Shown in pieces: positions 16,421 through 34,454 of a stretch of DNA of 38,382 nt. Numbering within the stretch: position 1 is the first letter of the stretch; every line of letters begins with the position of its first letter. Source of the DNA: a virus. The translations under genes and the position numbers were made by a program. Under the pieces are notes generated by a model, which was not told the DNA's origin, did not search any database, and saw only the letters and a program-made list of their open reading frames with translations. The DNA lies in IMG/VR virus record IMGVR_UViG_3300025132_000107, positions 1-38,382 of that record. One strand, 5' to 3'.

Positions 16421-16447
16421 AGACTTCAGAAAACAAGGAGAATTACT

Positions 16448-17077: not shown

Positions 17078-17080
17078 GAA

Positions 17081-17595: not shown

Positions 17596-17765
17596 TGAAG
17601 GTGGGCGATTTGGTAAAATGGTGCGGACCCGGCCCAGAAATTGTTGGCATCATTACGGACAAGACATCCATTGGTTGGTTTCGCGTCAACTGGATCTCAG
17701 GAGGCACCGTCGAATTCACGAGAGAGCCCGCTATGCACCTGGAGGTAATCGGTGAAAGTCGGTGA
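17595..17765 (+). CDS. K-V-G-D-L-V cassette protein, unit 4
   Basis: This 56-aa protein begins M-K-V-G-D-L-V-K-W and has E-I-V-G-I-I-T-D-K, F-R-V-N-W-I-S-G-G and the end L-E-V-I-G-E-S-R. An in-frame upstream ATG at 17538 would add residues that no other unit has, so it is not used. The GTG of unit 5 lies in its last codons. Confidence 0.75.
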   Translation: MKVGDLVKWCGPGPEIVGIITDKTSIGWFRVNWISGGTVEFTREPAMHLEVIGESR

Positions 17766-17928
17766 TCTAGTAAAGCACACTGGTGTCGATTCGCTTGGGG
17801 TGGGCGTCGTGACTGGCGTTTCGACTGCCCTGGTGACCGAAAGGCTAACCGCGATGGTCTTGTGGCCTCACTTCCGCGACCCAACTTTGGAGGTCGCATC
17901 GATGCTAGAAATTGTAAGTAAAAAGTGA
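17752..17928 (+). CDS. K-V-G-D-L-V cassette protein, unit 5
   Basis: This 58-aa protein (GTG start) begins M-K-V-G-D-L-V-K-H-T and has G-V-G-V-V-T-G-V and A-M-V-L-W-P-H. It ends L-E-I-V-S-K-K rather than the E-S-R joint. The last unit before a promoter. Confidence 0.75.
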   Translation: MKVGDLVKHTGVDSLGVGVVTGVSTALVTERLTAMVLWPHFRDPTLEVASMLEIVSKK

Positions 17929-17937
17929 AAAAAGTTC

Positions 17938-17966
17938 TTGACAAATTCATTCTCCTGTGAGATAAT
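17938..17966 (+). promoter_or_regulatory. accessory-region promoter, copy 1
   Basis: TTGACA, 17 nt, GATAAT with TG extension; six nt later ATAAAGTTGGAGG combines the +1 element and SD. Near-identical to the promoter 514 bp downstream. Confidence 0.85.
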
Positions 17967-17990
17967 GTTTACATAAAGTTGGAGGTCAAG

Positions 17991-18185
17991 GTGGAAAAAA
18001 ATGGAATTATGGTGGGCGATTTAGTTCGCGGCTTTCTTACTGAGCAAGTTGGTATCGTACTTGCGAAGGATGCACTAGAGGGGCATTGGGATCAACTCCA
18101 CGTCCTTTGGACTACCCAGGGCATTTCCATGTTTGGTCCCGGCACACAAGAATGGATCTCCTCCCAAAGTGTGGACGCAATATAG
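17991..18185 (+). CDS. K-V-G-D-L-V family protein, unit 6
   Basis: I chose the GTG 5 nt after GGAGG; the product is M-E-K-N-G-I-M-V-G-D-L-V-R-G. An ATG at 18009 would begin directly at M-V-G-D-L-V. The body (V-G-I-V-L-A, L-H-V-L-W-T-T-Q-G) matches the family. The stop is immediately followed by the GIY-YIG start. Confidence 0.7.
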   Translation: MEKNGIMVGDLVRGFLTEQVGIVLAKDALEGHWDQLHVLWTTQGISMFGPGTQEWISSQSVDAI

Positions 18186-18455
18186 ATGGCAACCAGGCAT
18201 TGGTATCTATACGTCGTCAAGTGCAGGGATACGACCCTTTACACTGGCATCACCACCGACCTAAAGCGCCGATTGCAGGAACACAACACGAGCAGCAAGG
18301 GCTCAAAATACACACGCACTCGTCGCCCTGTTACATTGGTATATCAACAGGCGCATCGTAATCGGTCGGAAGCACAGAAAGCAGAATATGCTTTTAAGCG
18401 ATTAACGAAACAGCAGAAGATAGAAATAATCAAAAAAAGTGAAAAAAGTTCTTGA
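18186..18455 (+). CDS. GIY-YIG nuclease domain protein (YhbQ/UPF0213-like)
   Basis: This 89-aa protein has W-Y-L-Y-V-V-K-C followed by L-Y-T-G-I-T-T-D-L-K-R-R-L (the GIY and YIG equivalents with the catalytic Arg), H-N, G-S-K-Y-T-R and the conserved Glu in Q-K-A-E-Y-A-F-K. Length and order match single-domain bacterial YhbQ-like proteins rather than large homing endonucleases. It may process DNA, or may have helped move or duplicate the surrounding cassettes. Confidence 0.85.
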   Translation: MATRHWYLYVVKCRDTTLYTGITTDLKRRLQEHNTSSKGSKYTRTRRPVTLVYQQAHRNRSEAQKAEYAFKRLTKQQKIEIIKKSEKSS

Positions 18456-18480
18456 CAAATTCATTCTCCCGTGAGATAAT
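18452..18480 (+). promoter_or_regulatory. accessory-region promoter, copy 2
   Basis: TTGACA, 17 nt, GATAAT, then six nt and ATAAAGTTGGGAG. Second copy of the 63-bp promoter repeat; it begins inside the GIY-YIG stop region. Confidence 0.85.
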
Positions 18481-18504
18481 GTTTACATAAAGTTGGGAGA
18501 CAAA

Positions 18505-18585
18505 ATGTTACTTAAAGGTATTATCATTCTTGGGTGTCAAGCCTTAGCATGTTTGGTGTTGATACGCTTTCTTGGAGGAAAATAA
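18505..18585 (+). CDS. 26-aa membrane peptide
   Basis: M-L-L-K-G-I-I-I-L-G-C, a hydrophobic run and R-F-L-G-G-K. The SD GGGAG lies 7 nt upstream. The stop abuts the next cassette ATG, and its last codons provide the GGAGG SD for it. Confidence 0.45.
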   Translation: MLLKGIIILGCQALACLVLIRFLGGK

Positions 18586-18804
18586 ATGAAAGTCGGTGAT
18601 TTAGTAAAATTGAAGAGGCCAACGACTAGGGATTATGCTAGCAAGGCTTTTGTCGTAACAGAAACACACACTCCAAGCGCAGGCTCGGTGGCTACATGGG
18701 GTGACGAATGGTCCCTCTGGATCAAGCTGGCTGCCCCAGAAGGTTCTTATTTGTCTGGCTGGACTTCAGCTTCAGACTATGAGGTGATCAATGAAAGTCG
18801 GTGA
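18586..18804 (+). CDS. K-V-G-D-L-V cassette protein, unit 7 (duplicate A)
   Basis: This 72-aa protein begins M-K-V-G-D-L-V-K-L-K-R-P and has K-A-F-V-V-T-E-T, W-S-L-W-I-K-L and ends Y-E-V-I-N-E-S-R. It is identical to unit 9 except for one residue (Pro versus Gln in A-x-E-G-S-Y). Confidence 0.8.
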   Translation: MKVGDLVKLKRPTTRDYASKAFVVTETHTPSAGSVATWGDEWSLWIKLAAPEGSYLSGWTSASDYEVINESR

Positions 18805-18961
18805 TTTAGTTGTACAGCTAGGATGGGAAGCAGACGGCGCAGGCATTGTAACTAAAATATGGAATGCTGGCGGCGAGCAGAATTATGCTGCGGTTCAGTG
18901 GCCGCAAGGCGCCTGCGACATGGAATGGAATCAGTTGAAGGTGATCAATGAAAGTCGGTGA
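18791..18961 (+). CDS. K-V-G-D-L-V cassette protein, unit 8
   Basis: This 56-aa protein begins M-K-V-G-D-L-V-V-Q-L and has G-A-G-I-V-T-K-I, A-A-V-Q-W-P-Q-G and ends L-K-V-I-N-E-S-R. It overlaps both neighbours by 14 nt and is enclosed by the two copies of the duplicated unit. Confidence 0.75.
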   Translation: MKVGDLVVQLGWEADGAGIVTKIWNAGGEQNYAAVQWPQGACDMEWNQLKVINESR

Positions 18962-19166
18962 TTTAGTAAAATTGAAGAGGCCAACGACTAGGGATTATGC
19001 TAGCAAGGCTTTTGTCGTAACAGAAACACATACTCCAAGCGCAGGCTCGGTGGCTACATGGGGTGACGAATGGTCCCTCTGGATCAAGCTGGCTGCCCAA
19101 GAAGGTTCTTATTTGTCTGGCTGGACTTCAGCTTCAGACTATGAGGTGATCAATGAAAGTCGGTGA
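18948..19166 (+). CDS. K-V-G-D-L-V cassette protein, unit 9 (duplicate B)
   Basis: This 72-aa protein is the near-identical copy of unit 7. The single amino acid change and one silent change imply a recent event or ongoing gene conversion. It overlaps both neighbours by 14 nt. Confidence 0.8.
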   Translation: MKVGDLVKLKRPTTRDYASKAFVVTETHTPSAGSVATWGDEWSLWIKLAAQEGSYLSGWTSASDYEVINESR

Positions 19167-19353
19167 TTTAGTGCAGCTTCAGGACGGAACACGTATGCAC
19201 TGGAACTTGTCTACAGGCATCGCCCTCCTGACTAAGAAACTACCAAGGAATGATTCTCTTGAATATGATTGGAAGGTCTTGGTCGATGGTCGATATATCG
19301 AGCTTGGCAGACAACTCGAACAATCGTCGGAGGTAATCAGTGAAAGTCGGTGA
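19153..19353 (+). CDS. K-V-G-D-L-V cassette protein, unit 10
   Basis: This 66-aa protein begins M-K-V-G-D-L-V-Q-L-Q and has T-G-I-A-L-L-T-K-K-L-P, W-K-V-L-V-D-G-R and ends S-E-V-I-S-E-S-R. T-K-K-L-P is shared with unit 11, so these two are closer to each other than to the rest. Confidence 0.8.
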   Translation: MKVGDLVQLQDGTRMHWNLSTGIALLTKKLPRNDSLEYDWKVLVDGRYIELGRQLEQSSEVISESR

Positions 19354-19552
19354 TTTAGTTAAAATAGTTGAATACGCTTCGCGCCACACCCCTCTAGGTA
19401 CAATGGGGATAGTCACCAAGAAGCTACCCAAACCCTTTCAGCATAGGATTTATCACCAGTGCTATGAGGTTCAATTTGACAACGGCTATCTGGGTCGTCA
19501 TGCCAATTTTTGTTTAGAAGTTATAAGTGAGGCCAAGGAGGGCCTAGAATAA
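19340..19552 (+). CDS. K-V-G-D-L-V cassette protein, unit 11 (last)
   Basis: This 70-aa protein (GTG start) begins M-K-V-G-D-L-V-K-I-V and has G-I-V-T-K-K-L-P, Y-E-V-Q-F-D-N-G-Y and L-E-V-I-S-E-A-K-E-G-L-E. The terminal joint has decayed (E-A-K instead of E-S-R) and the next, unrelated gene starts at TAATG. Confidence 0.8.
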   Translation: MKVGDLVKIVEYASRHTPLGTMGIVTKKLPKPFQHRIYHQCYEVQFDNGYLGRHANFCLEVISEAKEGLE

Positions 19553-19716
19553 TGACAAGAGAAGAAGAACTACGCCTAATGGCTGAATTTATTGAGAAAA
19601 AGGGAATAACAATGCTTCCAAAAGGTGTCGCACCCGACCCTGAAGAGGTTCGCTTTAGTGCCTGGGGTCGAAAGAAAAGGAAGAAAAAAGAGAAAAAAAA
19701 GGATAAAAAGTCTTGA
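19552..19716 (+). CDS. hypothetical small protein with lysine-rich tail
   Basis: This 54-aa protein has an acidic helix (T-R-E-E-E-L-R-L-M-A-E-F-I), P-D-P-E-E-V, F-S-A-W-G-R and then an almost pure K/R/E tail. F-S-A-W also appears in the C-terminal tags of two proteins further on. The stop lies within the next -35 box. Confidence 0.5.
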   Translation: MTREEELRLMAEFIEKKGITMLPKGVAPDPEEVRFSAWGRKKRKKKEKKKDKKS

Positions 19717-19741
19717 CAATCTGAGTTTTATGTGAGATAAT
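19713..19741 (+). promoter_or_regulatory. accessory-region promoter
   Basis: TTGACA, 17 nt, GATAAT with TG extension; six nt later ATAAACAGTTGAGAGAGG, one of the fullest versions of the +1 element. Confidence 0.85.
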
Positions 19742-19772
19742 ATATCCATAAACAGTTGAGAGAGGAAACATT

Positions 19773-19922
19773 TTGTTCAATTCAGTAGAAGATATTCAAG
19801 AAGCAAATCGAGAAGACATCGTGCAGTACCTGGAGAACTGGGGCACAGCTTGCTACGATGACGAATCGACAAGTTTGCTGCGAGAAGCTGCAATCGAAAC
19901 CTTTGAAACGGAGGGTTGTTAA
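19773..19922 (+). CDS. hypothetical small acidic protein
   Basis: This 49-aa protein has a TTG start after GAGAGAGG: M-F-N-S-V-E-D-I-Q-E-A-N, D-I-V-Q-Y-L-E-N-W-G, C-Y-D-D-E-S-T, L-R-E-A-A-I-E-T-F-E. Helical and acidic; not assigned. Next ATG follows after 1 nt. Confidence 0.55.
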   Translation: MFNSVEDIQEANREDIVQYLENWGTACYDDESTSLLREAAIETFETEGC

Positions 19923-19923
19923 A

Positions 19924-20130
19924 ATGTTGACGCCTAATCCTCAATCCTATGGAGAATTTGAACTTAAAGAAGGTTCAGCCTGGGTCACCGTTGGAAACAT
20001 TAGTGTTTATATTCGCAAGAATGAATCCGGCGTTGCAGTTGACCTTTTCCCGTTAGGCGACGAGATGGCTGAATCTCTCGCCGGAACGTGGCTCACGTAT
20101 GCAGAAGCCGAGCCAGAGGAGAATCTCTAA
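19924..20130 (+). CDS. hypothetical small beta-rich protein
   Basis: This 68-aa protein has alternating strands (S-A-W-V-T-V-G-N-I-S-V-Y-I-R and G-V-A-V-D-L-F-P-L) and a short helix. The ATG is preferred to an in-frame upstream ATG inside the previous gene. Not assigned. Confidence 0.55.
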   Translation: MLTPNPQSYGEFELKEGSAWVTVGNISVYIRKNESGVAVDLFPLGDEMAESLAGTWLTYAEAEPEENL

Positions 20131-20131
20131 A

Positions 20132-20638
20132 ATGAAAACAGATGATTATCTCATGAAAAAGTGGTGCTTCGGCTTCGGTCGAGGCAAGACGAAGGCTCGC
20201 GAAGAGGCTCGAATGGGTGCGGATGGCGAACTCAACACCTACCGCACCTACCCAAAGTATCGCACCATCGTCTTTAAGGTCGATAAGGCTACCAAGAAGG
20301 ATACAGAATGGCACGTAGAGGGCACGCAGTTCGCCTCCCTCACTGCCAAGCCTAAAAAGGTCAAGATGATCTTGCTGGAGCGAAACGGGGTGTTGTACGT
20401 ACCGGGTCAGAAAAGGCCATTCCTACGCATCCAGAACCCAGGGATCGTCACAGAGGATGGAATTCCTCCGGTGGGCTCGCTTATCACAGTGGACAAAAAA
20501 CATGCCATTGTGACCGCAGTCGATCGCAACCAACTAACTGTCTTTGTCAACGGCAAGACAAAGAACATTGTGTGCCGCCCAGGTCAGATCAAGTGGCACT
20601 CCGACAAGGTACTAATTCACGCAACCAATCAGAAATAA
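20132..20638 (+). CDS. hypothetical protein with C-terminal SH3-like pattern
   Basis: This 168-aa basic protein. Residues about 109-150 read P-P-V-G-S-L-I-T-V-D-K, A-I-V-T-A-V and Q-L-T-V-F-V-N-G, similar to the K-V-G-D-L-V pattern. The N-terminal part begins K-T-D-D-Y-L-M-K-K-W and is K/R rich. It may bind nucleic acid; not assigned. Confidence 0.55.
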   Translation: MKTDDYLMKKWCFGFGRGKTKAREEARMGADGELNTYRTYPKYRTIVFKVDKATKKDTEWHVEGTQFASLTAKPKKVKMILLERNGVLYVPGQKRPFLRIQNPGIVTEDGIPPVGSLITVDKKHAIVTAVDRNQLTVFVNGKTKNIVCRPGQIKWHSDKVLIHATNQK

Positions 20639-20649
20639 AGGAGAATTTT

Positions 20650-20985
20650 GTGGACGATTATGCTTTTGATGATATTCTTTTCTCAGAGGGTGAATTTTAT
20701 TATGGTAGCGACACCGATGAAGTAGCCACCATGATTGATAAATTCCTGCTTGAGAAGGACGCTCGCTCAACTCAGAAGAAGCGAGGTAGGCCCCGAAAAC
20801 ACTTCACAAAGACAGTAACGATGGTCCGTATGGAGTGCTTCGGCCCTTCCATCATGGTGAAGGCCGGAAGAGGACGGCCAGCCAAACACGAGAAGCGGGT
20901 GGAAATCTCTGTACCTCGTGACTTTGAGGTTTCCAAGGATGCTGTTTATCTATACACCAACGGCAGGTTAGAGGTGGTTGTATGA
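20650..20985 (+). CDS. twin AT-hook protein
   Basis: This 111-aa protein has a GTG start 6 nt after AAGGAG. The acidic N-terminus (D-D-Y-A-F-D-D-I-L) is followed by two AT-hook cores: K-K-R-G-R-P-R-K (43-50) and G-R-G-R-P-A-K (73-79), each the R-G-R-P minor-groove binding core with flanking basics. The C-terminus is strand-rich. It may compact or mark AT-rich DNA, or regulate promoters. The stop overlaps the next start (ATGA). Confidence 0.65.
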   Translation: MDDYAFDDILFSEGEFYYGSDTDEVATMIDKFLLEKDARSTQKKRGRPRKHFTKTVTMVRMECFGPSIMVKAGRGRPAKHEKRVEISVPRDFEVSKDAVYLYTNGRLEVVV

Positions 20986-21209
20986 AACACATTCTGGTGA
21001 CAGACTCGGAGCTTCAAATTCTCTTGGAAGCGGTCAATGAAGCACAGCTAGCCCGCGAAGCCTCGATGGAGGAATGGCAGAAAGAAAACGTCTCACGGTA
21101 CGATAATGAGATGCAGTGCCTCCAGGTGGACTATAACCGGACACAACGAGTCATCCAGAGCCTTGAAAAAAGATCACTTTTTTCTCATTTTTCTGATAAA
21201 AAGTCTTGA
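20982..21209 (+). CDS. hypothetical helical protein
   Basis: This 75-aa protein has one long amphipathic helix (L-L-E-A-V-N-E-A-Q-L-A-R-E-A) followed by a second; the last 15 residues are encoded across an AT-rich hairpin (GAAAAAAG/CTTTTTTC, 21165-21184). The stop is inside the following -35 box. Coupled to the AT-hook gene. Confidence 0.5.
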   Translation: MKHILVTDSELQILLEAVNEAQLAREASMEEWQKENVSRYDNEMQCLQVDYNRTQRVIQSLEKRSLFSHFSDKKS

Positions 21210-21234
21210 CAGTCCTGAATATTCATGGTATTAT
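21206..21234 (+). promoter_or_regulatory. accessory-region promoter
   Basis: TTGACA, 17 nt, TATTAT; six nt later ATAAATTAATTCGGGAG. Variant -10 class (TATTAT), also found at 25380. Confidence 0.8.
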
Positions 21235-21265
21235 AGGGACATAAATTAATTCGGGAGAATTTTTA

Positions 21266-21439
21266 ATGCTTGAAGACATTATACGGTACGAACAGGGCGG
21301 CATGGATACAGAAGAAGCAATAGGCTTCTTTCAGGGTCTTATCGACAGTGGTTTGGCCTGGAGGCTCCAAGGCCACTACGGTCGCACTGCCAAGGATTTA
21401 ATTGAGAATGGCTTTTGTCACATCCCCGGAGGTGAATAA
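21266..21439 (+). CDS. conserved-looking small phage protein
   Basis: This 57-aa protein (L-E-D-I-I-R-Y-E-Q-G-G-M-D, F-F-Q-G-L-I-D-S-G-L-A-W-R-L-Q-G-H-Y-G-R-T-A) has the sequence pattern of a short hypothetical protein I associate with many phages. Stop and next start overlap as TAATG. Confidence 0.65.
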   Translation: MLEDIIRYEQGGMDTEEAIGFFQGLIDSGLAWRLQGHYGRTAKDLIENGFCHIPGGE

Positions 21440-21807
21440 TGGGTTACCGATCATCCGTCGCACTGGCAATCAGTAAAGAATTAATGCCCCGCTTTCTAAC
21501 GGTCTTCGCGAAGTGCCCAGAGGCGCAGGCTATGGTCTTTAAAGACCATGATCGAATGGACGAGGATTATGATGGTGAGGGCACGTTCTTTGTTTATTGG
21601 GATCACGTAAAGTGGTATACCAGTTATCCAGAGGTGGAGGCCATTGAGAATTTTCTAGCAGATTGCGAGCTTGATGACTTTGAGGATTTAGATAATTCTT
21701 ACGAGCATTATCGTTTTCTGCGCTTGGGCGAGGACCATGATGATCTTGATATGATGGGTCATCTATGCGAGTATGACATTCGACTTACGCGGGAGCTATC
21801 GTTTTGA
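21439..21807 (+). CDS. hypothetical acidic protein
   Basis: This 122-aa protein begins M-G-Y-R-S-S-V-A-L-A-I, followed by a D/E-dense region (D-D-F-E-D-L-D and D-H-D-D-L-D). F-F-V-Y-W-D-H-V-K-W-Y may be a beta hairpin. Such a charge pattern is seen in DNA-mimic proteins, but this is only suggestive. Coupled to both neighbours. Confidence 0.6.
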   Translation: MGYRSSVALAISKELMPRFLTVFAKCPEAQAMVFKDHDRMDEDYDGEGTFFVYWDHVKWYTSYPEVEAIENFLADCELDDFEDLDNSYEHYRFLRLGEDHDDLDMMGHLCEYDIRLTRELSF

Positions 21808-22112
21808 TGAAAACAAAAGTCAATAAACCTATTATGTGCGCCGATGGTTTTAAAATGAGTGTGCAGGCGCACACGATGGCACACTCGATGTACGACCCAG
21901 AAAAGAAGCGATATACGCACGTTGAGGTGGGCTACCCAAATCGATTTGAGCCACTGCTTCAGAATTGGGCAGAGGACAAGAATAAGCCTACTGAGACGGT
22001 TTATGGTTTTGTACCAGTCGAGAGGGTTGCCCTTGTGTGTGCCAAACATGGCGGTGTTGTTTCTGGAGAGCTTCCAGAAGGTGTTGTTAGACTAGACCCG
22101 GTGGAGAGCTAA
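21807..22112 (+). CDS. hypothetical protein
   Basis: This protein is about 101 aa; the ATG overlaps the upstream stop (TGATG) and a TTG 3 nt earlier is possible. It begins with D-G-F-K-M-S-V-Q-A-H-T-M-A-H and has a H-V-E-V-G-Y-P segment and a late strand-rich part (V-P-V-E-R-V-A-L-V). Not assigned. Confidence 0.6.
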   Translation: MKTKVNKPIMCADGFKMSVQAHTMAHSMYDPEKKRYTHVEVGYPNRFEPLLQNWAEDKNKPTETVYGFVPVERVALVCAKHGGVVSGELPEGVVRLDPVES

Positions 22113-22115
22113 GTT

Positions 22116-22253
22116 ATGGAATTATCAGACATTCTTGGAGCCGTGGGCATATTTATTCTATGTCTCTCGGTTAGTTCATTGACCATGTACGTATTGCACA
22201 AGCTAGACAAGCGAGAACAAGAGCGTTACCTAGAGGAGAGGAAGAAAAAATGA
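22116..22253 (+). CDS. 45-aa single-helix membrane protein
   Basis: M-E-L-S-D then a hydrophobic helix of about 20 residues and a charged tail (D-K-R-E-Q-E-R-Y-L-E-E-R-K-K-K). The stop overlaps the next K-V-G-D-L-V start (ATGA), and its tail codons supply the SD. Confidence 0.55.
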   Translation: MELSDILGAVGIFILCLSVSSLTMYVLHKLDKREQERYLEERKKK

Positions 22254-22468
22254 AAGTAGGCGACCTCGTGGAGTTATCCCAGAAAGGTCGCGATACCCTT
22301 TGGTGTAAGAAGTTTCGCGACATGGTTGGGATCATAACAGAGATGGAGGAGAGGACTTCTATCGATGACCCTCGCACCATGCTAGCTTATTACACCGTAA
22401 TGTTCACAGGAAGGAAGGGTAACCGTCAACAGACCCGAATTCCGCGCTCTTATTTGAAGTACGTGTGA
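22250..22468 (+). CDS. K-V-G-D-L-V family small protein
   Basis: This 72-aa protein begins M-K-V-G-D-L-V-E-L-S and has V-G-I-I-T-E-M, Y-T-V-M-F-T-G and a basic end (R-I-P-R-S-Y-L-K-Y-V). An isolated member outside the main array, coupled to a membrane peptide. Confidence 0.7.
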   Translation: MKVGDLVELSQKGRDTLWCKKFRDMVGIITEMEERTSIDDPRTMLAYYTVMFTGRKGNRQQTRIPRSYLKYV

Positions 22469-22540
22469 CGGGCGGCGGGCGTCCCCAAGTAAGTGAAAAC
22501 GCGAATCGAAATTTTTTTTTCATTTAATCAAGAAAAATGC

Positions 22541-22569
22541 TTGACAACAAGCAAAATTTGTGAGATAAT
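22541..22569 (+). promoter_or_regulatory. accessory-region promoter
   Basis: TTGACA, 17 nt, GATAAT with TG extension; six nt later ATAAACAACTTAGGAGAG. A T-tract and A-rich flank lie upstream. Confidence 0.85.
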
Positions 22570-22600
22570 ACACTCATAAACAACTTAGGAGAGTCATTTC

Positions 22601-23017
22601 ATGGCCATTATTGACTATAAGGAAGAGCAGGTTGGTTGGGACTACAAGGGTTCCGACTGGTACGATGTAGAATATGCTTACCCAACGATTGAATTCTTTA
22701 TTCACGTTTGGCAGAATTCCAACAGCGTCGTTGACGTAAAGCAAACGCTTGAGTACGCATTTAAGAAAGATGCGCGTTATCGTGTGGTCCATGTTAAAAA
22801 CAGGCGTCTTCCGCTTGAGTGTCACACTCACTCCCCCAGTTGCACGGCAGAGAATCCGCCGTGGAAATACCAAATGAACGCCAGCTACTCAAACCTTAAA
22901 GCACGCGCCAACAGGTGGCGAAAAAAAGGAGTGCCCTTGAAAGAACTGGCGCAGCCTCCTCGCGAGAAGGCAAAACTAAAAGAACTTATAGAACTAGCCA
23001 AAATGGAGGCGCTCTAA
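22601..23017 (+). CDS. hypothetical protein
   Basis: This 138-aa protein has an aromatic-rich N-terminal half (W-D-Y-K-G-S-D-W-Y-D-V-E-Y-A-Y) and a C-terminal basic helical half (K-A-R-A-N-R-W-R-K-K-G). L-E-C-H-T-H-S-P-S-C may be a metal site. Not assigned. Next gene starts at TAATG. Confidence 0.6.
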   Translation: MAIIDYKEEQVGWDYKGSDWYDVEYAYPTIEFFIHVWQNSNSVVDVKQTLEYAFKKDARYRVVHVKNRRLPLECHTHSPSCTAENPPWKYQMNASYSNLKARANRWRKKGVPLKELAQPPREKAKLKELIELAKMEAL

Positions 23018-23214
23018 TGACACGCAAAGACTTTCAAATGATTGCAGATATAGTTTCTTCGACGCTGGCAACGGTCACGCCAGAGGCTCGACAGTGCCTC
23101 GCTCTTGACTTTGCGGCTCAACTCGGAAAGACAAACACACGATTCGACCAAGTTCGCTTTGTCAAAGCGTGTCTATCCAATGAGTTGGCGGAAAACCAAC
23201 GTGCGGCCTGGTAG
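23017..23214 (+). CDS. hypothetical small helical protein
   Basis: This 65-aa protein (T-R-K-D-F-Q-M-I-A-D-I-V-S-S-T-L, L-G-K-T-N-T-R-F-D-Q-V-R-F-V-K-A-C-L) resembles a short hypothetical protein common in phages (M-T-R-x-D-F...N-x-R-F-D-x-x-R-F-x-x-A-C). Function unknown. Confidence 0.6.
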   Translation: MTRKDFQMIADIVSSTLATVTPEARQCLALDFAAQLGKTNTRFDQVRFVKACLSNELAENQRAAW

Positions 23215-23264
23215 AAGGTCGTTTGGCTCTCTTTGCGCCTAGTTATGGGCGCGAGGGAAAAAAG

Positions 23265-23375
23265 ATGACTTACTTAGAGAACGGTGATTTTATTATTGGT
23301 ATTCTTTGCATGTGGGGTGGTCTTGTGATTGTTCACCAAATCATAAGCCGCCTCGAAAAAAAAGGAAAAAAATAG
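23265..23375 (+). CDS. 36-aa single-helix membrane protein
   Basis: M-T-Y-L-E-N-G-D, a hydrophobic helix (I-I-G-I-L-C-M-W-G-G-L-V-I-V) and a basic tail. Ends immediately before a promoter, as several other micro membrane proteins do. Confidence 0.5.
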   Translation: MTYLENGDFIIGILCMWGGLVIVHQIISRLEKKGKK

Positions 23376-23404
23376 TTGACAAATTCCTTTTTGTGTGAGA
23401 TAAT
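23376..23404 (+). promoter_or_regulatory. accessory-region promoter
   Basis: TTGACA, 17 nt, GATAAT with TG extension; six nt later ATAACGAATTGAGAGAGG. Confidence 0.85.
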
Positions 23405-23433
23405 ACCTGTATAACGAATTGAGAGAGGCTCCA

Positions 23434-23922
23434 ATGAAAATTCCATTCTTTCCCGCACCGTCTGACGCTGTTATCGACGAAGCCAAGAACGGCAAGCATA
23501 TCAAAGCTGCACGCATGTGGGTGAAAGAAGCACGCGCAAACCTCGCCAATGGCGATCGTGTAGCGCCCTCTCCCATGTTTGCGATGCAAGTGGTCAAGTC
23601 GATTGCAAAGGGCCTTCCTGCGCTTAAAATGGCAGTGCAACGGGGAAAGTATCAAGAGGCTCGTCGAGTTGAAGCAGCCGAGGAAAAGGAAAAATTACTA
23701 GCGGAACGCTTCGCGTTCTTTATGAAAGAGGACAAGCCTGCGGCCACAACCACCGGTGTCTGCGATGTCTGCAACGAAGTTGGTAAGCATGTCACCAACC
23801 ACTATGCACCGGACGGAATGGGCTATCCCACGATCGTTTCTCAAACCTGTGTCGTACCTTGCGACCAGAAAACTACCTTGGGCGACTTCAGCGCCTGGGA
23901 CAAGATACCAGGAGGATTTTAA
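23434..23922 (+). CDS. hypothetical protein with C-terminal G-D-F-S-A-W tag
   Basis: This 162-aa protein: residues 1-100 are helical and basic, then a P-A-A-T-T-T linker. A Cys/His cluster follows (V-C-D-V-C-N-E-V-G-K-H-V and T-C-V-V-P-C), which looks like a degenerate zinc ribbon. The C-terminus is G-D-F-S-A-W-D-K-I-P-G-G-F, repeated almost exactly at the end of the unrelated protein at 25872. The ATG is used rather than a TTG 15 nt upstream that overlaps the leader. Confidence 0.6.
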   Translation: MKIPFFPAPSDAVIDEAKNGKHIKAARMWVKEARANLANGDRVAPSPMFAMQVVKSIAKGLPALKMAVQRGKYQEARRVEAAEEKEKLLAERFAFFMKEDKPAATTTGVCDVCNEVGKHVTNHYAPDGMGYPTIVSQTCVVPCDQKTTLGDFSAWDKIPGGF

Positions 23923-24060
23923 ATGCCGTTAGATGCTTACTTTTTGTTAGGATTCGGAGGAGGGTATTTACTTGGGGTCGTGGTGGGTTACCTCTTTGGA
24001 CTCCACGGTTTTCTTCACAAAAGAGTCTTAAAAGAGAAAAAAAGTAAAGAAAGTTCTTGA
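23923..24060 (+). CDS. 45-aa membrane protein, glycine-rich helix
   Basis: Hydrophobic residues about 5-32 contain G-F-G-G-G-Y-L-L-G-V-V-V-G-Y, followed by a K/E/S tail. Small-residue spacing suggests helix packing. The stop lies in the following -35 box. Confidence 0.5.
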   Translation: MPLDAYFLLGFGGGYLLGVVVGYLFGLHGFLHKRVLKEKKSKESS

Positions 24061-24085
24061 CATTCTCAGCATTTTATGAGATAAT
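24057..24085 (+). promoter_or_regulatory. accessory-region promoter
   Basis: TTGACA, 17 nt, GATAAT with TG extension; six nt later ATAAACAGTCGAGGAAG. Confidence 0.85.
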
Positions 24086-24113
24086 ATATATATAAACAGT
24101 CGAGGAAGACATC

Positions 24114-24341
24114 ATGCTAGCAAAAGCACTTGAAAACGCAATCACCGTCCGTTCAACCGAAACCTTGCCCAATGGGGTCAAGGTTGTTAAGCTCGATGTG
24201 GCAGATTACATCGACTTTATTCGCAAGCCTCATGCCATCGAGTATGAAGGCGAAATTTATGGTCGCAGCGGCTGGAATAGTGATACACACGTCGCTTTCT
24301 ATCGCTCTGACGTTCAACCTGCTTTTGCTGTACAATGGTAA
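24114..24341 (+). CDS. hypothetical small protein
   Basis: This 75-aa protein has T-L-P-N-G-V-K-V-V-K-L-D-V-A-D-Y and E-G-E-I-Y-G-R-S-G-W-N-S-D-T-H-V-A-F-Y: a strand-rich, compact domain. Not assigned. First gene after its promoter. Confidence 0.55.
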   Translation: MLAKALENAITVRSTETLPNGVKVVKLDVADYIDFIRKPHAIEYEGEIYGRSGWNSDTHVAFYRSDVQPAFAVQW

Positions 24342-24352
24342 AGGGGAACCAT

Positions 24353-24580
24353 ATGAAAAATCAAATCAAAGTTAATTTTCCGTTCACTGGCCACTTCACG
24401 GACTATCATGAGGGCTCTTATGTGGCTAAAGTTCTGAAGCAAATCACTGGTAGGCGCATTTTCTATCAGGAGAAGGGCTTCGATAAGAAGGGCTACAAGT
24501 TTATTTTCGACGTTGTGCCTGTGAAGGAAGAGGAAGAAGACAACTTTTCACGCGATAAAGAAAGTTTTATCGCACCATAA
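24353..24580 (+). CDS. hypothetical small protein
   Basis: This 75-aa protein uses the ATG after AAGGGGAA rather than one 18 nt upstream. Alternating strands and an acidic linker (V-K-E-E-E-E-D-N-F). Not assigned. Confidence 0.5.
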   Translation: MKNQIKVNFPFTGHFTDYHEGSYVAKVLKQITGRRIFYQEKGFDKKGYKFIFDVVPVKEEEEDNFSRDKESFIAP

Positions 24581-24591
24581 GTGTTTTTTTG

Positions 24592-24620
24592 TTGACAAAC
24601 CTGGAGACATCTGTTATAAT
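24592..24620 (+). promoter_or_regulatory. accessory-region promoter
   Basis: TTGACA, 17 nt, perfect TATAAT. The +1 element here reads ATGAACGACG, so an ATG coincides with the expected start base. Confidence 0.85.
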
Positions 24621-24677
24621 ATGTTCATGAACGACGAAACACGAGACTGCCTAATAACCTCACGAGGACAGTGGATT

Positions 24678-24917
24678 ATGCAACCAGCTACGAAACCAAA
24701 TATTGCTACCGTAAAGGTGGAGCGACTAGACATTGACCTCTTGAGGAGTCAACGCGATGCGCTGATTGCAGCCATTGAATTGCGCGAGATCGAAGACATG
24801 GCACCTTATGGTGACGGTGAAACGCTCCAATGGTTCCAAAAGCAAACCGAGTGCCTCGATGGCCTCGTTAACCTGCTCGATCACATGATTGACACCGCCG
24901 AGGGCTTCAATGTTTGA
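24678..24917 (+). CDS. hypothetical helical protein
   Basis: This 79-aa protein begins at the ATG with GAGGA 9 nt upstream. An in-frame ATG at 24627 sits exactly at the predicted +1 and would give a 96-aa leaderless product. The core (V-K-V-E-R-L-D-I-D-L-L-R-S-Q-R-D-A-L) is similar to the gene at 25012 (L-K-D-V-D-L-V-R-L-E-Q-Q-K-E-A-V), so the two are likely paralogs. Confidence 0.55.
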   Translation: MQPATKPNIATVKVERLDIDLLRSQRDALIAAIELREIEDMAPYGDGETLQWFQKQTECLDGLVNLLDHMIDTAEGFNV

Positions 24918-24932
24918 GGCGGTTTTAGTTTT

Positions 24933-25019
24933 ATGATAATTGCAGCCTACATTTTCGGCTATTTGGGCTTCCTGGTCTTAACAACCTACCTTTTGGAGCG
25001 TTATTTTCCCTATGAGTAA
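24933..25019 (+). CDS. 28-aa membrane peptide
   Basis: M-I-I-A-A-Y-I-F-G-Y-L-G-F-L-V-L-T-T-Y-L, then E-R-Y-F-P-Y-E. One helix. It overlaps the following start and sits between the two paralogous helical genes. Confidence 0.4.
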   Translation: MIIAAYIFGYLGFLVLTTYLLERYFPYE

Positions 25020-25236
25020 ATTAAAACGAACAACAGCCTTAAAGCTGAAAGATGTTGACCTGGTTCGCCTGGAGCAGCAGAAAGAAGCCGTTCTTGACGT
25101 ACTAGACGACATCGACGACCTTAGTGGTTTTATGCCTGAATTCTTTTGCAGGCTGATTGGACCGAGAGCAGACAGGCTAGCCGAATTGGTTGAATTCTTA
25201 GAAGACATCCTAAAACAAGGAAAACCTCGTAAATGA
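25012..25236 (+). CDS. hypothetical helical protein, paralog of the gene at 24678
   Basis: This 74-aa protein has V-D-L-V-R-L-E-Q-Q-K-E-A-V-L-D-V-L-D-D-I and ends with G-L-V-type helix D-R-L-A-E-L-V-E-F-L-E-D-I-L, paralleling D-G-L-V-N-L-L-D-H-M-I in the earlier gene. Helical hairpin likely. Coupled by ATGA to the next peptide. Confidence 0.55.
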   Translation: MSKLKRTTALKLKDVDLVRLEQQKEAVLDVLDDIDDLSGFMPEFFCRLIGPRADRLAELVEFLEDILKQGKPRK

Positions 25237-25337
25237 TTGATATTACAGTGCTTTTATGGCTTGCATTGACTTTTGGTGTCGCTTGGGGTTGGGAAAAGAT
25301 GAACCCACCGAAGGGCAATTTTCGCATAAAAAAGTGA
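25233..25337 (+). CDS. 34-aa membrane peptide
   Basis: M-I-D-I-T-V-L-L-W-L-A-L-T-F-G-V-A-W-G-W then E-K-M-N-P-P-K-G. One helix, overlapping the upstream stop (ATGA), and followed by A-tracts and a promoter. Confidence 0.45.
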   Translation: MIDITVLLWLALTFGVAWGWEKMNPPKGNFRIKK

Positions 25338-25356
25338 AAAAAAGTGAAAAAAAGAG

Positions 25357-25385
25357 TTGACAACTTTGCTTTTTAATGGTATTAT
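25357..25385 (+). promoter_or_regulatory. accessory-region promoter
   Basis: TTGACA, 17 nt, TATTAT, preceded by repeated AAAAAAGTG blocks resembling an UP element. The leader keeps AAACGACTTGAGGAA, displaced by a few bases. Confidence 0.8.
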
Positions 25386-25416
25386 ATATACATCTTAAAC
25401 GACTTGAGGAATTCTC

Positions 25417-25653
25417 ATGACAGACGAAAAATACAATGGTTGGACAAACCGATCGACATGGAATACGGCCCTGTGGCTATTTAACGGGCCATCGCGCTAC
25501 GCTATGATGCGCGACATTTTCTCTAACAAAGAGGCAACCCCAAAGACGGCAGAGACTTTTTGTCGAGGGACTTTTGGAAAGAAAACGCCTGACGGTCACT
25601 CGTTGGACGTTGTAGACTGGAAAGAAATTGCAGCCGCTATCAACGAGCAGTAA
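25417..25653 (+). CDS. Y-N-G-W-T-N-R-S-T-W small phage protein
   Basis: This 78-aa protein has the N-terminal Y-N-G-W-T-N-R-S-T-W-N-T-A-L-W-L, the hallmark of a widespread small phage protein family of unknown function. The rest is helical, ending E-I-A-A-A-I-N-E. First gene after its promoter. Confidence 0.65.
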   Translation: MTDEKYNGWTNRSTWNTALWLFNGPSRYAMMRDIFSNKEATPKTAETFCRGTFGKKTPDGHSLDVVDWKEIAAAINEQ

Positions 25654-25665
25654 GGAGATCCCAAA

Positions 25666-25863
25666 ATGACTAAAGTTCAGGCAGTTGAATTATTTAAAGA
25701 ATCGATGATCCCCACAGTCTCTGCGACCCACGAGAGGTTTGGCAGAAAAGATGTTGGAGCAAGGCGAGAGGCTTGGGCCTTCTTTACGGATGGTCTTTGT
25801 CGCGATGGTCAAATCACAGATCGTCAGTACATGAATTGGGCGACACCCAAATGTTGCGAGTAG
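25666..25863 (+). CDS. hypothetical small phage protein
   Basis: This 65-aa protein (A-W-A-F-F-T-D-G-L-C-R-D-G-Q-I-T-D-R-Q-Y-M-N-W) has a pattern seen in short phage proteins. AAGGAG precedes the ATG. Not assigned. Confidence 0.55.
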   Translation: MTKVQAVELFKESMIPTVSATHERFGRKDVGARREAWAFFTDGLCRDGQITDRQYMNWATPKCCE

Positions 25864-25871
25864 GAGAGAAA

Positions 25872-26111
25872 ATGAAAAAGTTTATCGTACCGGTTACTTG
25901 GAAGGTCGAAACCGTCGTCATGGTTGAAGCAGAAAGCATCGAGGATGCAATCCATGAAGCACACTGCGTTGACATTGATAATATGCCTGACCCCGAATAT
26001 GTCGGAGATAGCTTCGAAATCACTAGTGAAGACGACATTCAAGAGGTGTCAACCGAAAAGAATGAAACCGGCGACTTCTCCGCATGGAATGATATGCCCG
26101 GAGGGTTCTAA
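25872..26111 (+). CDS. hypothetical small protein with C-terminal G-D-F-S-A-W tag
   Basis: This 79-aa protein begins M-K-K-F-I-V-P-V-T-W-K-V-E-T, a strand pair and helix (A-E-S-I-E-D-A-I-H-E-A) typical of a small ferredoxin-like fold. After a flexible E/T/N linker it ends T-G-D-F-S-A-W-N-D-M-P-G-G-F, matching the tail of the 162-aa protein at 23434. The ATG is chosen by GGAGAG upstream. Confidence 0.6.
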   Translation: MKKFIVPVTWKVETVVMVEAESIEDAIHEAHCVDIDNMPDPEYVGDSFEITSEDDIQEVSTEKNETGDFSAWNDMPGGF

Positions 26112-26116
26112 ATTTG

Positions 26117-26277
26117 AAAAAGTGAAAAGAGATTCTCGGTGGTGCCTACTGGCTTAATAGGCAACCTTTCAAGTTCTTAGCCTGCCTGGTCGCTCCAGGG
26201 AGTAAGGAAATCGATGAAAGCTAGACCATCGACTCGGAATGGCCAAACGAGCGCCGAGAATCTTTTTTCACTTTTTT
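26117..26277 (+). ncRNA. candidate structured RNA closed by a 23-bp helix
   Basis: Arms 26117-26139 and 26254-26276 pair over 23 bp (GATTCTCGG with CCGAGAATC at the inner end, one G-U). The 114-nt interior folds into three hairpins: GGTGCCTA/TAGGC-ACC (near 26140-26165), CTTA-CCTGG/CCAGG-TAAG (26177-26208) and CGATG/CATCG (26212-26233). This is a four-way-junction, cloverleaf-like layout. T-runs in the 3' arm could also end transcription. No ORF is present. It matches no RNA family I know. Confidence 0.6.
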
Positions 26278-26289
26278 GAATAAAAACTG

Positions 26290-26318
26290 TTGACAGATGC
26301 CTTGTCAGATGTTATAAT
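26290..26318 (+). promoter_or_regulatory. accessory-region promoter
   Basis: TTGACA, 17 nt, perfect TATAAT; six nt later ATAAACAACAAGGGG. It starts just after the structured RNA. Confidence 0.85.
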
Positions 26319-26364
26319 AAGGGCATAAACAACAAGGGGAAACAATCCCCGCAGGAGAGATACC

Positions 26365-26637
26365 TTGATTAAAGTTGGTGACAAAGTTCGGTCCTACGAT
26401 TTTCCTCACACACGCGAATACTGGTACGAAGGAACCGTTGAGGGCTTTGAAGAGATTGAAGGGTGCAAACGATACAAGATTCGCATCGAAAAGCAATTTA
26501 TCGAGAGCAAAGAAGTTCAAATCAGTGCAGACCGAATGGAAGCTGCGCCACATATTTATCCGCCTGTAAATGGTACACGACGCGCACTCGGAGGAGTATG
26601 CAACGGTGTTGATCTACTAATCGAGGGAGTACAATAA
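26365..26637 (+). CDS. K-V-G-D-x-V family protein, longer member
   Basis: This 90-aa protein has a TTG start after GGAGAG: I-K-V-G-D-K-V-R-S-Y, W-Y-E-G-T-V-E-G-F, Y-K-I-R-I-E-K-Q-F. This is the same strand order as the array proteins, with an added C-terminal segment (G-V-C-N-G-V-D-L-L-I-E). Confidence 0.65.
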   Translation: MIKVGDKVRSYDFPHTREYWYEGTVEGFEEIEGCKRYKIRIEKQFIESKEVQISADRMEAAPHIYPPVNGTRRALGGVCNGVDLLIEGVQ

Positions 26638-26638
26638 A

Positions 26639-26764
26639 ATGAGGGTAATCAAATCATTTCTTTTTGCGACGGAAGCTGCAAACTATATCGAGAAGCATAA
26701 ATTAAATGCTATCATTGACAAGAATATATTCACAGGCAAGTACGACGTTCTCGACGCATCGTAA
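26639..26764 (+). CDS. hypothetical 41-aa protein
   Basis: M-R-V-I-K-S-F-L-F-A-T-E-A-A-N-Y-I-E, K-L-N-A-I-I-D-K-N-I and a short tail. The stop of the previous gene is 1 nt away. Not assigned. Confidence 0.45.
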   Translation: MRVIKSFLFATEAANYIEKHKLNAIIDKNIFTGKYDVLDAS

Positions 26765-26788
26765 ACAATTCGAGAGAGGATAAAAAAT

Positions 26789-27046
26789 ATGATTGGTACA
26801 AAGACAATATTCCTAGCGCAGTGGGACCATAAGCATGGTCAAGATGTTTCAGCACATAAGACCGAGAAAGGAGCCTTTGAACAGTGCGTTGTTTGGATGC
26901 GTGAGTGTCTGAGCGAATGGTACGCACCCGATGACGAAGACCACGAGCGTTATTCTCAGATGTCCGACGATGACTTGTTTGCGTCTTGGACTGACATTAC
27001 AGGCGAAGAATATATGACCGTTGCAACTGTAGCCTTGCACAATTAA
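26789..27046 (+). CDS. hypothetical acidic protein
   Basis: This 85-aa protein has F-L-A-Q-W-D-H-K-H-G, a helix with C and W, and an acidic stretch (Y-A-P-D-D-E-D-H-E-R-Y and S-D-D-D-L-F). GAGAGAGG precedes the ATG. Not assigned. Confidence 0.55.
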   Translation: MIGTKTIFLAQWDHKHGQDVSAHKTEKGAFEQCVVWMRECLSEWYAPDDEDHERYSQMSDDDLFASWTDITGEEYMTVATVALHN

Positions 27047-27070
27047 AAGAGAGAGAAGAGAATATTATTC

Positions 27071-27099
27071 TTGACAAACTCTTAAATATGTGAGATAAT
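27071..27099 (+). promoter_or_regulatory. accessory-region promoter
   Basis: TTGACA, 17 nt, GATAAT with TG extension; six nt later AGAAACGATGGAGAGAGG. A leader of about 105 nt follows, with a 2-codon ORF after the SD. Confidence 0.85.
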
Positions 27100-27211
27100 G
27101 TATATAGAAACGATGGAGAGAGGATAAAATAAAATGAACTAAGCGTTACCCTAAAGCTGTATGGGGTCAGCCTGTTTCTTGTTTCATGGCTTTATTTCTG
27201 GAGGGTTCAAA

Positions 27212-27385
27212 ATGGAATACTACGTACAAAAATTAAACTTTGATCACTGGATTAATATCTGTGGTCCTTTTGGTTCAGAGAGTGAGGCTTACAACTATGC
27301 TAAAGGGTGTAAGAGCAACTCTATTCACGGTAAAAAGATTCGTATTGCTACTAAGGAAGGACGAGTAGTTGATATTCTTATGTAA
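27212..27385 (+). CDS. hypothetical small protein
   Basis: This 57-aa protein begins M-E-Y-Y-V-Q-K-L-N-F-D-H-W and has G-S-E-S-E-A-Y-N-Y-A-K and K-K-I-R-I-A-T-K-E-G-R-V-V. Likely beta-alpha-beta. GGAGGG precedes the ATG; an in-frame upstream ATG at 27161 lacks an SD. Confidence 0.55.
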   Translation: MEYYVQKLNFDHWINICGPFGSESEAYNYAKGCKSNSIHGKKIRIATKEGRVVDILM

Positions 27386-27512
27386 TCTTCAGGGGTTGGG
27401 AGGAACCCTAAGCCAAAGTATTTTTAAACGTACTACTTTAAGCCTATAGGGAAATAGGTTGAAATAGATTAGATAGTATAGTACATATACGCTAGAAAGT
27501 CAAGAGAAAAGA

Positions 27513-27605
27513 TTATACACTTAGCGCATACTTACTATACACTTACCGTGTGTATACTTTTTATACACCGTAAAGCTACTAAACGCAAAGGAACTATACA
27601 CATGC
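27513..27605. repeat. cluster of TATACAC repeats
   Basis: TATACACTTA occurs at 27514 and 27536 (22 nt apart); an inverted TATACACAC lies at 27549-27557, then TATACACCGT at 27562 and TATACACATG at 27596. The spacing and mixed orientation suggest protein-binding sites, for example for a replication initiator or repressor. The preceding 27386-27512 holds only AT-rich sequence and small hairpins. Confidence 0.5.
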
Positions 27606-27787
27606 TGCTCGATCCATTCGCACCGATAACACACGCCAACCTATTGAAAGTATTGCCGTTTGGGCTTGGCTATATGTCCGATGACAACGACGAGCCGAGC
27701 ATTACCTCGCTGCGAATTGCGTTGGCCTTGCGTACCCTTCGACCTTATTCTGACTCTCACAAAGAAAAAATGTATGAAATTAATTAG
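27602..27787 (+). CDS. hypothetical small protein
   Basis: This 61-aa protein begins M-L-L-D-P-F-A-P-I-T-H-A-N-L-L and continues to a helix (S-L-R-I-A-L-A-L-R-T-L-R). AAAGGA lies 10 nt upstream. Codon use and position inside the repeat cluster leave some doubt that it is expressed. Confidence 0.4.
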   Translation: MLLDPFAPITHANLLKVLPFGLGYMSDDNDEPSITSLRIALALRTLRPYSDSHKEKMYEIN

Positions 27788-28171
27788 TAATAATTTCAAT
27801 GGGTTAGTTTAACTTTCTCTAGGTGGAGATAGAATTATGCCGGAGGGTAATAATGTAAATAAGATATACACTCAGCTAGTGTACACTTCCTATACATGTT
27901 AACATACTATACAGCCGAGGGTAGGCAAACAAAGTAAAGAAACATGTAGAAAGTACTTGACAAAGCACAGAGAAGGTGTTATAGTAAAAACAATGAAGTA
28001 ATCAAAAAGCACATAAGAGGGGTACCCCCCCTCCCCCCGGTATAGCCGAATCTATGTCCTAGTGGGAAAAAACCCCGCGATCGGGGCGCCTAAGTACATG
28101 AACGAATCGTAAGCCAATTTTCGAGATCTTAAAAAAATTCCCCAAAAATATTTTGAGGATAAAGGAAAATA
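27788..28171. other. AT-rich intergenic region with repeats, C-tracts and hairpin
   Basis: No convincing gene. It holds more TATACA copies (27865 TATACACTCA; others near 27890 and 27907), one promoter (27957), GGGGTACCCC at 28019 running into two C-tracts (7 and 6 C), and a CCCCG-CGAT-CGGGG hairpin at 28073-28086 without a T-tract. It separates the accessory block from the late-like block. Origin or boundary function is possible. Confidence 0.5.
27957..27985 (+). promoter_or_regulatory. sigma70-type promoter
   Basis: TTGACA, 17 nt, TATAGT. It lacks the ATAAAC +1 element. The nearest gene starts about 185 nt downstream, past the C-tracts and hairpin. Confidence 0.65.
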
Positions 28172-28766: not shown

Positions 28767-28839
28767 GGGCCCATAGCTCAGCGGTCAGAGCTGCCGGCTC
28801 ATAACCGGTAGGTCCCTGGTTCAAATCCAGGTGGGCCCA
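28767..28839 (+). tRNA. tRNA with CAU anticodon (Ile2 or Met)
   Basis: 73 nt with a full cloverleaf: acceptor GGGCCCA/TGGGCCC, D arm GCTC/GAGC, anticodon arm GCCGG/CCGGT (one wobble) with loop CTCATAA, and T arm CCTGG/CCAGG with TTCAAAT. Discriminator A; no CCA encoded. The overall sequence resembles bacterial tRNA-Ile2 (CAU, read as AUA after lysidine modification) more than elongator Met, and flanking genes use ATA often. The identity remains uncertain. Confidence 0.9.
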
Positions 28840-28860
28840 CTTAACACAAAGGTAAAGAAG

Positions 28861-31424: not shown

Positions 31425-31643
31425 ATGAAATGGGAAACCAAAGATAAGCTACAAAAGACCGGAATGGTTTTATTTATTATCGGCTTTGTGGCGATCGTAG
31501 GGTGGGGGTATGAAAATTGTCAACGCTCTGTAGTTAAAAAAGCTATATACAATGGCTGGGGGGCCACTGCTGAAGGGATATGCAATAAACTATCCAGCAA
31601 GACGTGCTTCCGTAGCTCAGTTGGTAGAGCAGCTGATTTGTAA
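31425..31643 (+). CDS. small membrane protein overlapping the tRNA-Thr gene
   Basis: This protein is 72 aa from the ATG; a GTG at 31413 is possible. A 21-aa ORF (31363-31428) ending at the same ATG as ATGA could couple to it. One membrane helix (M-V-L-F-I-I-G-F-V-A-I-V-G-W-G). The last 12 codons (C-F-R-S-S-V-G-R-A-A-D-L) are simply tRNA sequence read as protein, and the stop is the TAA of the anticodon loop. Confidence 0.45.
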   Translation: MKWETKDKLQKTGMVLFIIGFVAIVGWGYENCQRSVVKKAIYNGWGATAEGICNKLSSKTCFRSSVGRAADL

Positions 31644-31678
31644 TCAGCAGGTCGTCAGTTCAAGTCTGACCGGAAGCT
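31606..31678 (+). tRNA. tRNA-Thr (UGU)
   Basis: 73 nt: acceptor GCTTCCG/CGGAAGC, D arm GCTC/GAGC, anticodon arm GCTGA/TCAGC with loop TTTGTAA (anticodon TGT), T arm GTCAG/CTGAC with TTCAAGT. Discriminator T, no CCA. It would help read ACA codons, frequent in this AT-rich block. Confidence 0.95.
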
Positions 31679-33947: not shown

Positions 33948-34454
33948 ATGAAACTATTATTTGAAAATTGGCGAGGATATATCCTTAAAGAAGAAATTGA
34001 ATCTGGCGACCTCTCTAATTGGGATGACTGGGTTACGGTAGACCATCTCACGCAAATAATCAGGTCAAGTCGAGAAGATGAGGAATCAGACGCGAAAAAG
34101 TGGCTTGCGAAAGAATTAGGTTGGGAGTTCGCGAAGGCCATACCATACGCTGGCAGCGTTGTGACTGCTGGGTTTGTTCTGGCTGATGCTTTTAAAAAGT
34201 TTGGAAGAAAACCAGAAGGGGCGGAAGGGGCAAAAGAATTTCCTATTTTAGATAAATTGGATGTTGATCCCCACTTAATATCAACCATCGATAATGATAT
34301 AATGAATGAAATGGATGAAGAATATGAGCGATATTTAGAGAGTCTCCCTGGCGATATGCTTGTTAAGGATATTGTGGATGTGAATGATTATATTAGAAAA
34401 ATTATCGCTACCGACACAAACAATCATGTTGTAATAAGGGACGAAAGCGAATGA
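33948..34454 (+). CDS. tagged virion-type protein with hydrophobic middle
   Basis: This 168-aa protein has the tag M-K-L-L-F-E-N-W-R-G-Y-I-L-K-E-E (L-K-E at 13-15). Residues about 65-85 (A-K-A-I-P-Y-A-G-S-V-V-T-A-G-F-V-L-A-D-A-F) could insert in a membrane. The C-terminal part (F-P-I-L-D-K-L-D-V-D-P-H-L-I, Y-L-E-S-L-P-G-D, D-T-N-N-H-V-V-I) is a defined domain of unknown function. The gene abuts the previous stop and overlaps the kinase start by ATGA. Confidence 0.6.
   Translation: MKLLFENWRGYILKEEIESGDLSNWDDWVTVDHLTQIIRSSREDEESDAKKWLAKELGWEFAKAIPYAGSVVTAGFVLADAFKKFGRKPEGAEGAKEFPILDKLDVDPHLISTIDNDIMNEMDEEYERYLESLPGDMLVKDIVDVNDYIRKIIATDTNNHVVIRDESE

Follow-up and report, generated by a model that had tools for sequence, protein, structure and literature searches.

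A probable new structured RNA with a five-way junction and a terminator-like end in uncultured phages

Introduction

Does the long inverted repeat between two transcription units of an uncultured phage enclose a working RNA, or is it an intrinsic terminator with an oversized loop? Little is known about the structured RNAs of large lytic phages, and many of those described have no assigned function. Phage T4, for instance, makes two stable RNAs similar in size to the present element, RNA C and RNA D, which lie within a tRNA cluster and have no known function. Here we analysed all 38,382 bases of an IMG/VR virus record (the window), in which the element lies between a gene end at 26111 and a promoter at 26290. 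A first-pass annotation made from the letters had proposed a new structured RNA with a cloverleaf-like four-way junction, perhaps a decoy, a regulator or a terminator-linked small RNA, and had suggested an Rfam scan and covariation with homologs among other checks.

Results

Closing helix and folding stability

The element is framed by a closing helix, P1. Its arms (26117-26139 and 26254-26276, inverted repeat I1) form 23 pairs, 22 Watson-Crick and one G-U, exactly as first annotated, and the helix is present in the minimum free energy (MFE) fold as well as in the sequence. The arm motif occurs a single time in the window and in 0 of 100 shuffled windows. The MFE fold of the + strand reaches -66.2 kcal/mol (z -6.0), and none of 200 shuffles folded equally well. 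The minus strand folds almost as well (MFE -63.7), because the long helix is nearly symmetric. The closing helix is the source of all the excess folding stability: in the element and its four relatives (the five members, see below), the inner 106-113 nt are no more stable than shuffled sequence (z -1.25 to +0.10). Neither the strand nor the inner hairpins can therefore be established from folding. By thermodynamics, the "good stems" that the first-pass annotation had seen in the internal hairpins are not special; they rest on conservation and paired changes in relatives.

Relatives of the element

Four relatives were found in other uncultured phage contigs, L009 (23.8 kb), L042 (185.5 kb), L070 (189.6 kb) and L094 (50.7 kb). 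L009 first came from a scan for the closing-helix core, in which one of five stretches was real, and was confirmed by blastn (81% identity to the window element, E 1.5e-33). L042 and L070 came from an inner-block pattern containing the ten letters of loop L4 (3 of 31 stretches real), and L094 from another inner-block pattern (4 of 15 real); the patterns that brought in L009 and L094 did not contain the L4 letters. Two further patterns (3 of 6 and 4 of 31 real) gave no additional relatives, and none of 12 stretches was real in a pattern scan of genome contigs. When the 81 loci dropped from the inner-block, further and genome-contig scans were searched with the RNA model, one match was obtained, at E 3.2. 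For the four stretches dropped from the closing-helix scan, the verdict came from their sequence and from searching their records at the DNA level. Search patterns select for their own letters; conserved letters outside the patterns are free of this bias.

By construction, model R1, derived from the five members, matches each member record once on the coding strand; nine other records searched gave no match. Three of these nine (L014, L015 and L018) share a neighbouring 415-aa gene at 85-87% and end before the RNA region, so their missing match says nothing. The element occurs once per record in all five records that reach the region, and blastn returned short partial matches only and no second copy, unlike a MITE-like transposable repeat with several copies per genome.

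Fold of the five members

When the five-row alignment was folded with RNAalifold, P1 and four hairpins were obtained. The junction is thus five-way, and the three internal hairpins and four-way junction of the first-pass annotation have to be revised. The parts of the predicted RNA are as follows.

26117..26277, + strand: whole structured RNA element, five-way junction (fold, inverted repeat, five-member alignment, covariation)
26117..26140, + strand: P1 closing helix, 5' strand; 8 outer pairs (window) and 16 inner pairs kept in all five members
26141..26166, + strand: hairpin P2 with loop L2 (26148-26158); one pair changed on both sides
26167..26173, + strand: joining strand J2/3, TTTCAAG; one of seven columns variable among the five members (alignment)
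26174..26208, + strand: hairpin P3, its tip (26187-26197) variable; one pair changed on both sides
26212..26231, + strand: hairpin P4; 10-nt loop L4 AAAGCTAGAC (26217-26226), same letters in all five members
26233..26251, + strand: hairpin P5 with loop L5 (26237-26247), core ATGGC in all five members; one pair changed on both sides
26253..26276, + strand: P1 closing helix, 3' strand, with the T-rich stretch as its outer part
26263..26276, + strand: T-rich stretch behind the GC part of P1, terminator-like end (sequence, alignment)

In the five-sequence alignment, 99.1% of the 215 pair cells are paired, and when the partners were slid by one to three columns the value was 39.7-50.2%. Changes on both sides were found in 8 of the 43 pairs, located in P1, P2, P3 and P5, so that four of the five helices carry compensatory changes; P4 has one G-C to G-U change. 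As many double-sided changes were reached in 0 of 500 shuffles, a control that is inflated by kinship among the members, five sequences in all and all metagenomic. The wobble cells comprise 15 G-U and 0 A-C, and therefore the functional strand is the + strand.

Database and literature searches

In the window, Rfam release 15 at gathering score matched only two tRNAs, located elsewhere, and three of the five members searched at E<=10 gave only matches far below gathering score. The element was matched neither as tRNA nor as tmRNA by ARAGORN or Rfam, in agreement with the earlier remark that it does not resemble a tRNA. With relatives that covary in the proposed helices and no Rfam family match, these two checks came out in favour of a new structured RNA, and that the element is a structured RNA is almost certain from the comparison of sequences. 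Very probably it is a genuine folded RNA of a kind not yet catalogued and a working molecule.

Searches of other collections returned no match in E. coli genomes, chance-level short matches only in the plasmid collection (2 records), and, in the phage collection, chance-level short matches only for the window query (7 records) and none for the L070 query. The RNA model had no match in 7, 398 and 395 prokaryote genomes, the last two searched with stricter filters. As the genomes could not be chosen by host, these negatives show little. A host RNA mimic or a prophage origin was considered and dropped, with no match above chance in the E. coli, plasmid, phage and prokaryote searches; a toxin-antitoxin or defence link was likewise dropped, six neighbouring proteins having no PADLOC match. 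In the excerpts consulted from the literature on phage structured or five-way-junction RNAs, nothing was recognised as this element. Judged by sequence, the element is a new family within a known kind, the phage-encoded structured noncoding RNAs.

Constraint on the RNA compared with neighbouring genes

The inner RNA core is identical to that of the window at 87/105 positions in L009, 92/111 in L094, 99/111 in L070 and 106/112 in L042 (83-95%). Invariant columns make up 46 of 54 inner paired columns, and 32 of 50 inner unpaired columns without the variable P3 tip (33 of 61 with it). In contrast, the fourfold-degenerate sites of two long genes shared by the window with L070, L094 and L009 are 28-37% identical, which is close to chance, and the proteins of these genes are 60-66% identical. 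When ±1.5 kb was compared pairwise by blastn, the window aligned with L042 and with L009 over the RNA only. These comparisons show much stronger conservation in the loops and joining strands than in the neighbouring coding DNA. Near-invariance of the RNA while synonymous sites are near saturation suggests that the element is important to the phage. With identity this high between the window and L042, exchange between phages may have played a part besides strong selection.

Genomic setting

A tract of small genes surrounds the element in all five members. The features next to it in the window are as follows.

25357..25385, + strand: nearest upstream promoter found, TTGACA-17-TATTAT, taken to drive the RNA-ending operon
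25872..26111, + strand: upstream neighbour gene, 79 aa, no Pfam, PHROG or PADLOC match
26290..26318, + strand: promoter of the next transcription unit, TTGACA-17-TATAAT
26365..26637, + strand: downstream neighbour gene, 90 aa, TTG start, no family match; the relatives have different genes at this place

Behind the core motif, all five members have a promoter of the repeated type, at +61 to +75 (+61 to +73 in the four relatives). The nearest upstream promoter found precedes the preceding gene or genes, at -858 in the window, -685 in L042, -389 in L070 and -502 in L009; in L094, the pattern used detected no operon promoter at a short distance upstream. From this spacing on both sides, we take the RNA to form the end of a short operon. 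Only L070 and L094 have a homologue of the window's 79-aa gene directly upstream; a different gene stands there in L042 and L009, so the RNA does not belong to any single gene. The first gene downstream is MTRKDF in L042 and L009 and MLHEKAVKK, followed by MTRKDF, in L070 and L094; the window has a gene of a third kind.

As in an intrinsic terminator, a GC-containing stem runs directly into a T tract in all five members of the alignment. The short loop of 3-8 nt is replaced by a 112-nt structured insert in P1, and the terminator scan did not list the element. The suggestion that the RNA is terminator-linked fits, the order closing helix, T-rich stretch and promoter being kept in all five members.

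Promoter-like and repeated elements were also seen elsewhere. Repeated promoters resembling TTGACA-17-TATAAT occupy 12693-27985 of the window, and AAAAGTGAAAA stretches before several of them (near 13871, 17920, 18433 and 25328) resemble the outer arm of the RNA. In the relatives' loci (L108-L111) the repeated promoter is CTTG(T/A)(C/A)-17-TATNWT, with 5 to 9 pattern matches each and a -35 element unlike the TTGACA of the window. Short CCGAGAATTTTTTTT-like stretches, at 12309-12329 of L109 (before another promoter) and, in turned orientation, near 13909 of L110 and near 13533 of L111, resemble the 3' end of the RNA; they may be remnants or a shared operon-end motif.

Discussion

Proposed function

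The reading we lean towards is a terminator-ended noncoding RNA that is borne on a 3' UTR and probably acts in trans. This lineage of large uncultured phages would carry one copy of a gene for a noncoding RNA of roughly 135-160 nt. P1 and the T-rich stretch would terminate the operon transcript, and cleavage in or before P1, or protection by P1, would leave a stable RNA. The released RNA would act in trans; its invariant loops and joining strand (L4 AAAGCUAGAC, J2/3 and L5 AUGGC), held by loop-loop contacts, would present a binding surface for a protein or RNP of the phage or the host. This mode of action is a tentative proposal. If a host factor were bound, the RNA would point to a step in host takeover or counter-defence that is RNA-based and new, and its small size makes it amenable to in vitro structure determination, pull-down and mutational work.

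A comparable origin is described for phage phiKZ, in which an RNA of ~100 nt was confirmed by Northern blot; in the part of the report consulted, the authors assume that it is processed from the 3' UTR of the PHIKZ298 mRNA and possibly ends in its terminator (PMC8545117). Both would then be phage RNAs from an mRNA 3' end that may be terminator-ended. The phiKZ RNA has two stem-loops, unlike the present element, beside which it is set by description only (PMC8545117).

Alternative explanations

An unlikely alternative is a cis-acting switch, in which an aptamer in the terminator responds to a ligand or protein and thereby controls read-through to the operon behind it. The compact multi-branch core sits directly on the terminator-like stem, and MTRKDF, as the first or second gene downstream in four of five members, speaks for a cis role. 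However, the downstream unit has its own promoter right behind the element in all five, and the first downstream gene is one of three kinds among them. The model for such a switch is the HMP-PP riboswitch, likewise a structured element built into a terminator stem; as far as the consulted text describes it, it has an unusually small aptamer and belongs to thiamin genes, whereas here the core is large, at an operon end, with a promoter behind (PMC6478431).

An antisense small RNA, pairing with phage or host mRNAs through the exposed J2/3 or the loops, is no more probable than the switch. This mode is known for phage small RNAs, according to the portion of the source consulted (PMC12197685). J2/3 pairs slightly better with predicted than with shuffled start regions at all five loci, as a pyrimidine-rich strand would do anyway; the excess is small, a conserved target is absent, and this complementarity was not retained as evidence. 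The best candidate target, ~20 nt of complementarity in the MLHEKAVKK gene at loci A (L108) and B (L109), was rejected with the site broken in C (L110). The 12-mers shared by the window and D (L111) lie in unrelated contexts, and the best sense-strand duplexes were not clearly above the minus-strand control.

That the element is an operon-end intrinsic terminator only, its inner part being filler in an oversized loop, seems quite unlikely. Its GC-containing stem followed by a T-rich stretch in five of five members would suit a terminator, as would its site between an operon end and the next promoter. The invariant inner columns exceed the needs of a terminator loop, however, with fourfold sites near saturation, and the element occurs once per record against 5 to 9 pattern-matched promoters per flanking locus.

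A micropeptide is very improbable. The earlier statement that there is no open reading frame holds for frames of at least 60 aa across the element, but a 21-codon frame with AAGGA then ATG (MKARPSTRNG..., 26214-26279) begins inside it at 26214, and P3 and P4 would control it. The Shine-Dalgarno-like AAGGA and the ATG are found in all five members and MKARPS(T/S)RNG in four (alignment, translated by eye). However, the frames of L042 and L094 stop after ten codons, and that of L009 diverges after five codons with a frame shift in L5, yet the P4 and P5 pairs are kept.

A packaging or scaffold RNA like the phi29 pRNA, suggested by similar size, the closing helix and loop-loop complementarity, is scarcely credible: the terminase encoded in the L070 record has 530 aa, with PF03237 (T4-type terminase N-domain) in the first half and a nuclease half judged by eye, whose RGDGxDxS stretch we take to be a nuclease motif, so that it appears unlike a reduced phi29-type terminase, and the element lies in the small-gene tract, far from terL in both large records. 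The pRNA shares size range and closing helix with the element but is, in the account consulted, peculiar to phi29-related phages (PMC11476376); the Rfam pRNA model did not match the element.

Loop contacts

L2 and L5 both carry a UGGCY-type motif complementary to L4. The possible L2-L4 pairing runs for 7, 7, 5, 5 and 4 bp in the five members, and shuffled loops paired as long in 0 of 1000 trials, in which the members are not independent; for the window sequence by itself, the chance is 0.006, uncorrected for the number of loop pairs tried. The complementarity between L4 and L5 is 4-5 bp. A self-associating phage RNA, in which L4 (AAAGCUAGAC) would pair with L2 inside the molecule and with L5 between molecules to form rings or cages, is suggested by this pairing pattern but improbable. 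If true, it would be a small counterpart of GOLLD and ROOL and might, in the infected cell, scaffold a host factor or act as a sink for it. As described in the excerpts consulted, GOLLD and ROOL are phage-encoded, structured RNAs of function not known with loop-loop contacts, like the element as predicted here; they are much larger and often near tRNA islands, whereas the element has no Rfam match and the nearest tRNA of the window is 2.5 kb away (PMC12286853). Two other contacts were discarded: a J2/3-L4 pseudoknot, whose columns are all invariant and hence give no supporting evidence, and L2-L5 kissing (4-6 bp), which shifts register in L094.

Other genes in the window and relatives

The tRNA genes of the window are tRNA-Met (CAT, 28767-28840) and tRNA-Thr (TGT, 31606-31678), and L094 has five tRNAs. 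Small proteins starting with MKVGDLV occur many times per phage, at 19153-19552 of the window and at many sites in L108-L111, and are possibly a small-domain family grown by duplication. A match to a protein kinase domain (Pfam PF00069) at 34451-35392 is weak and below the cut-off. At 6048-7622, the window carries a phage-borne GroEL-type chaperonin (phrog_5725, E 1e-138), which is 42-45% identical to the best 15 phage-collection records listed.
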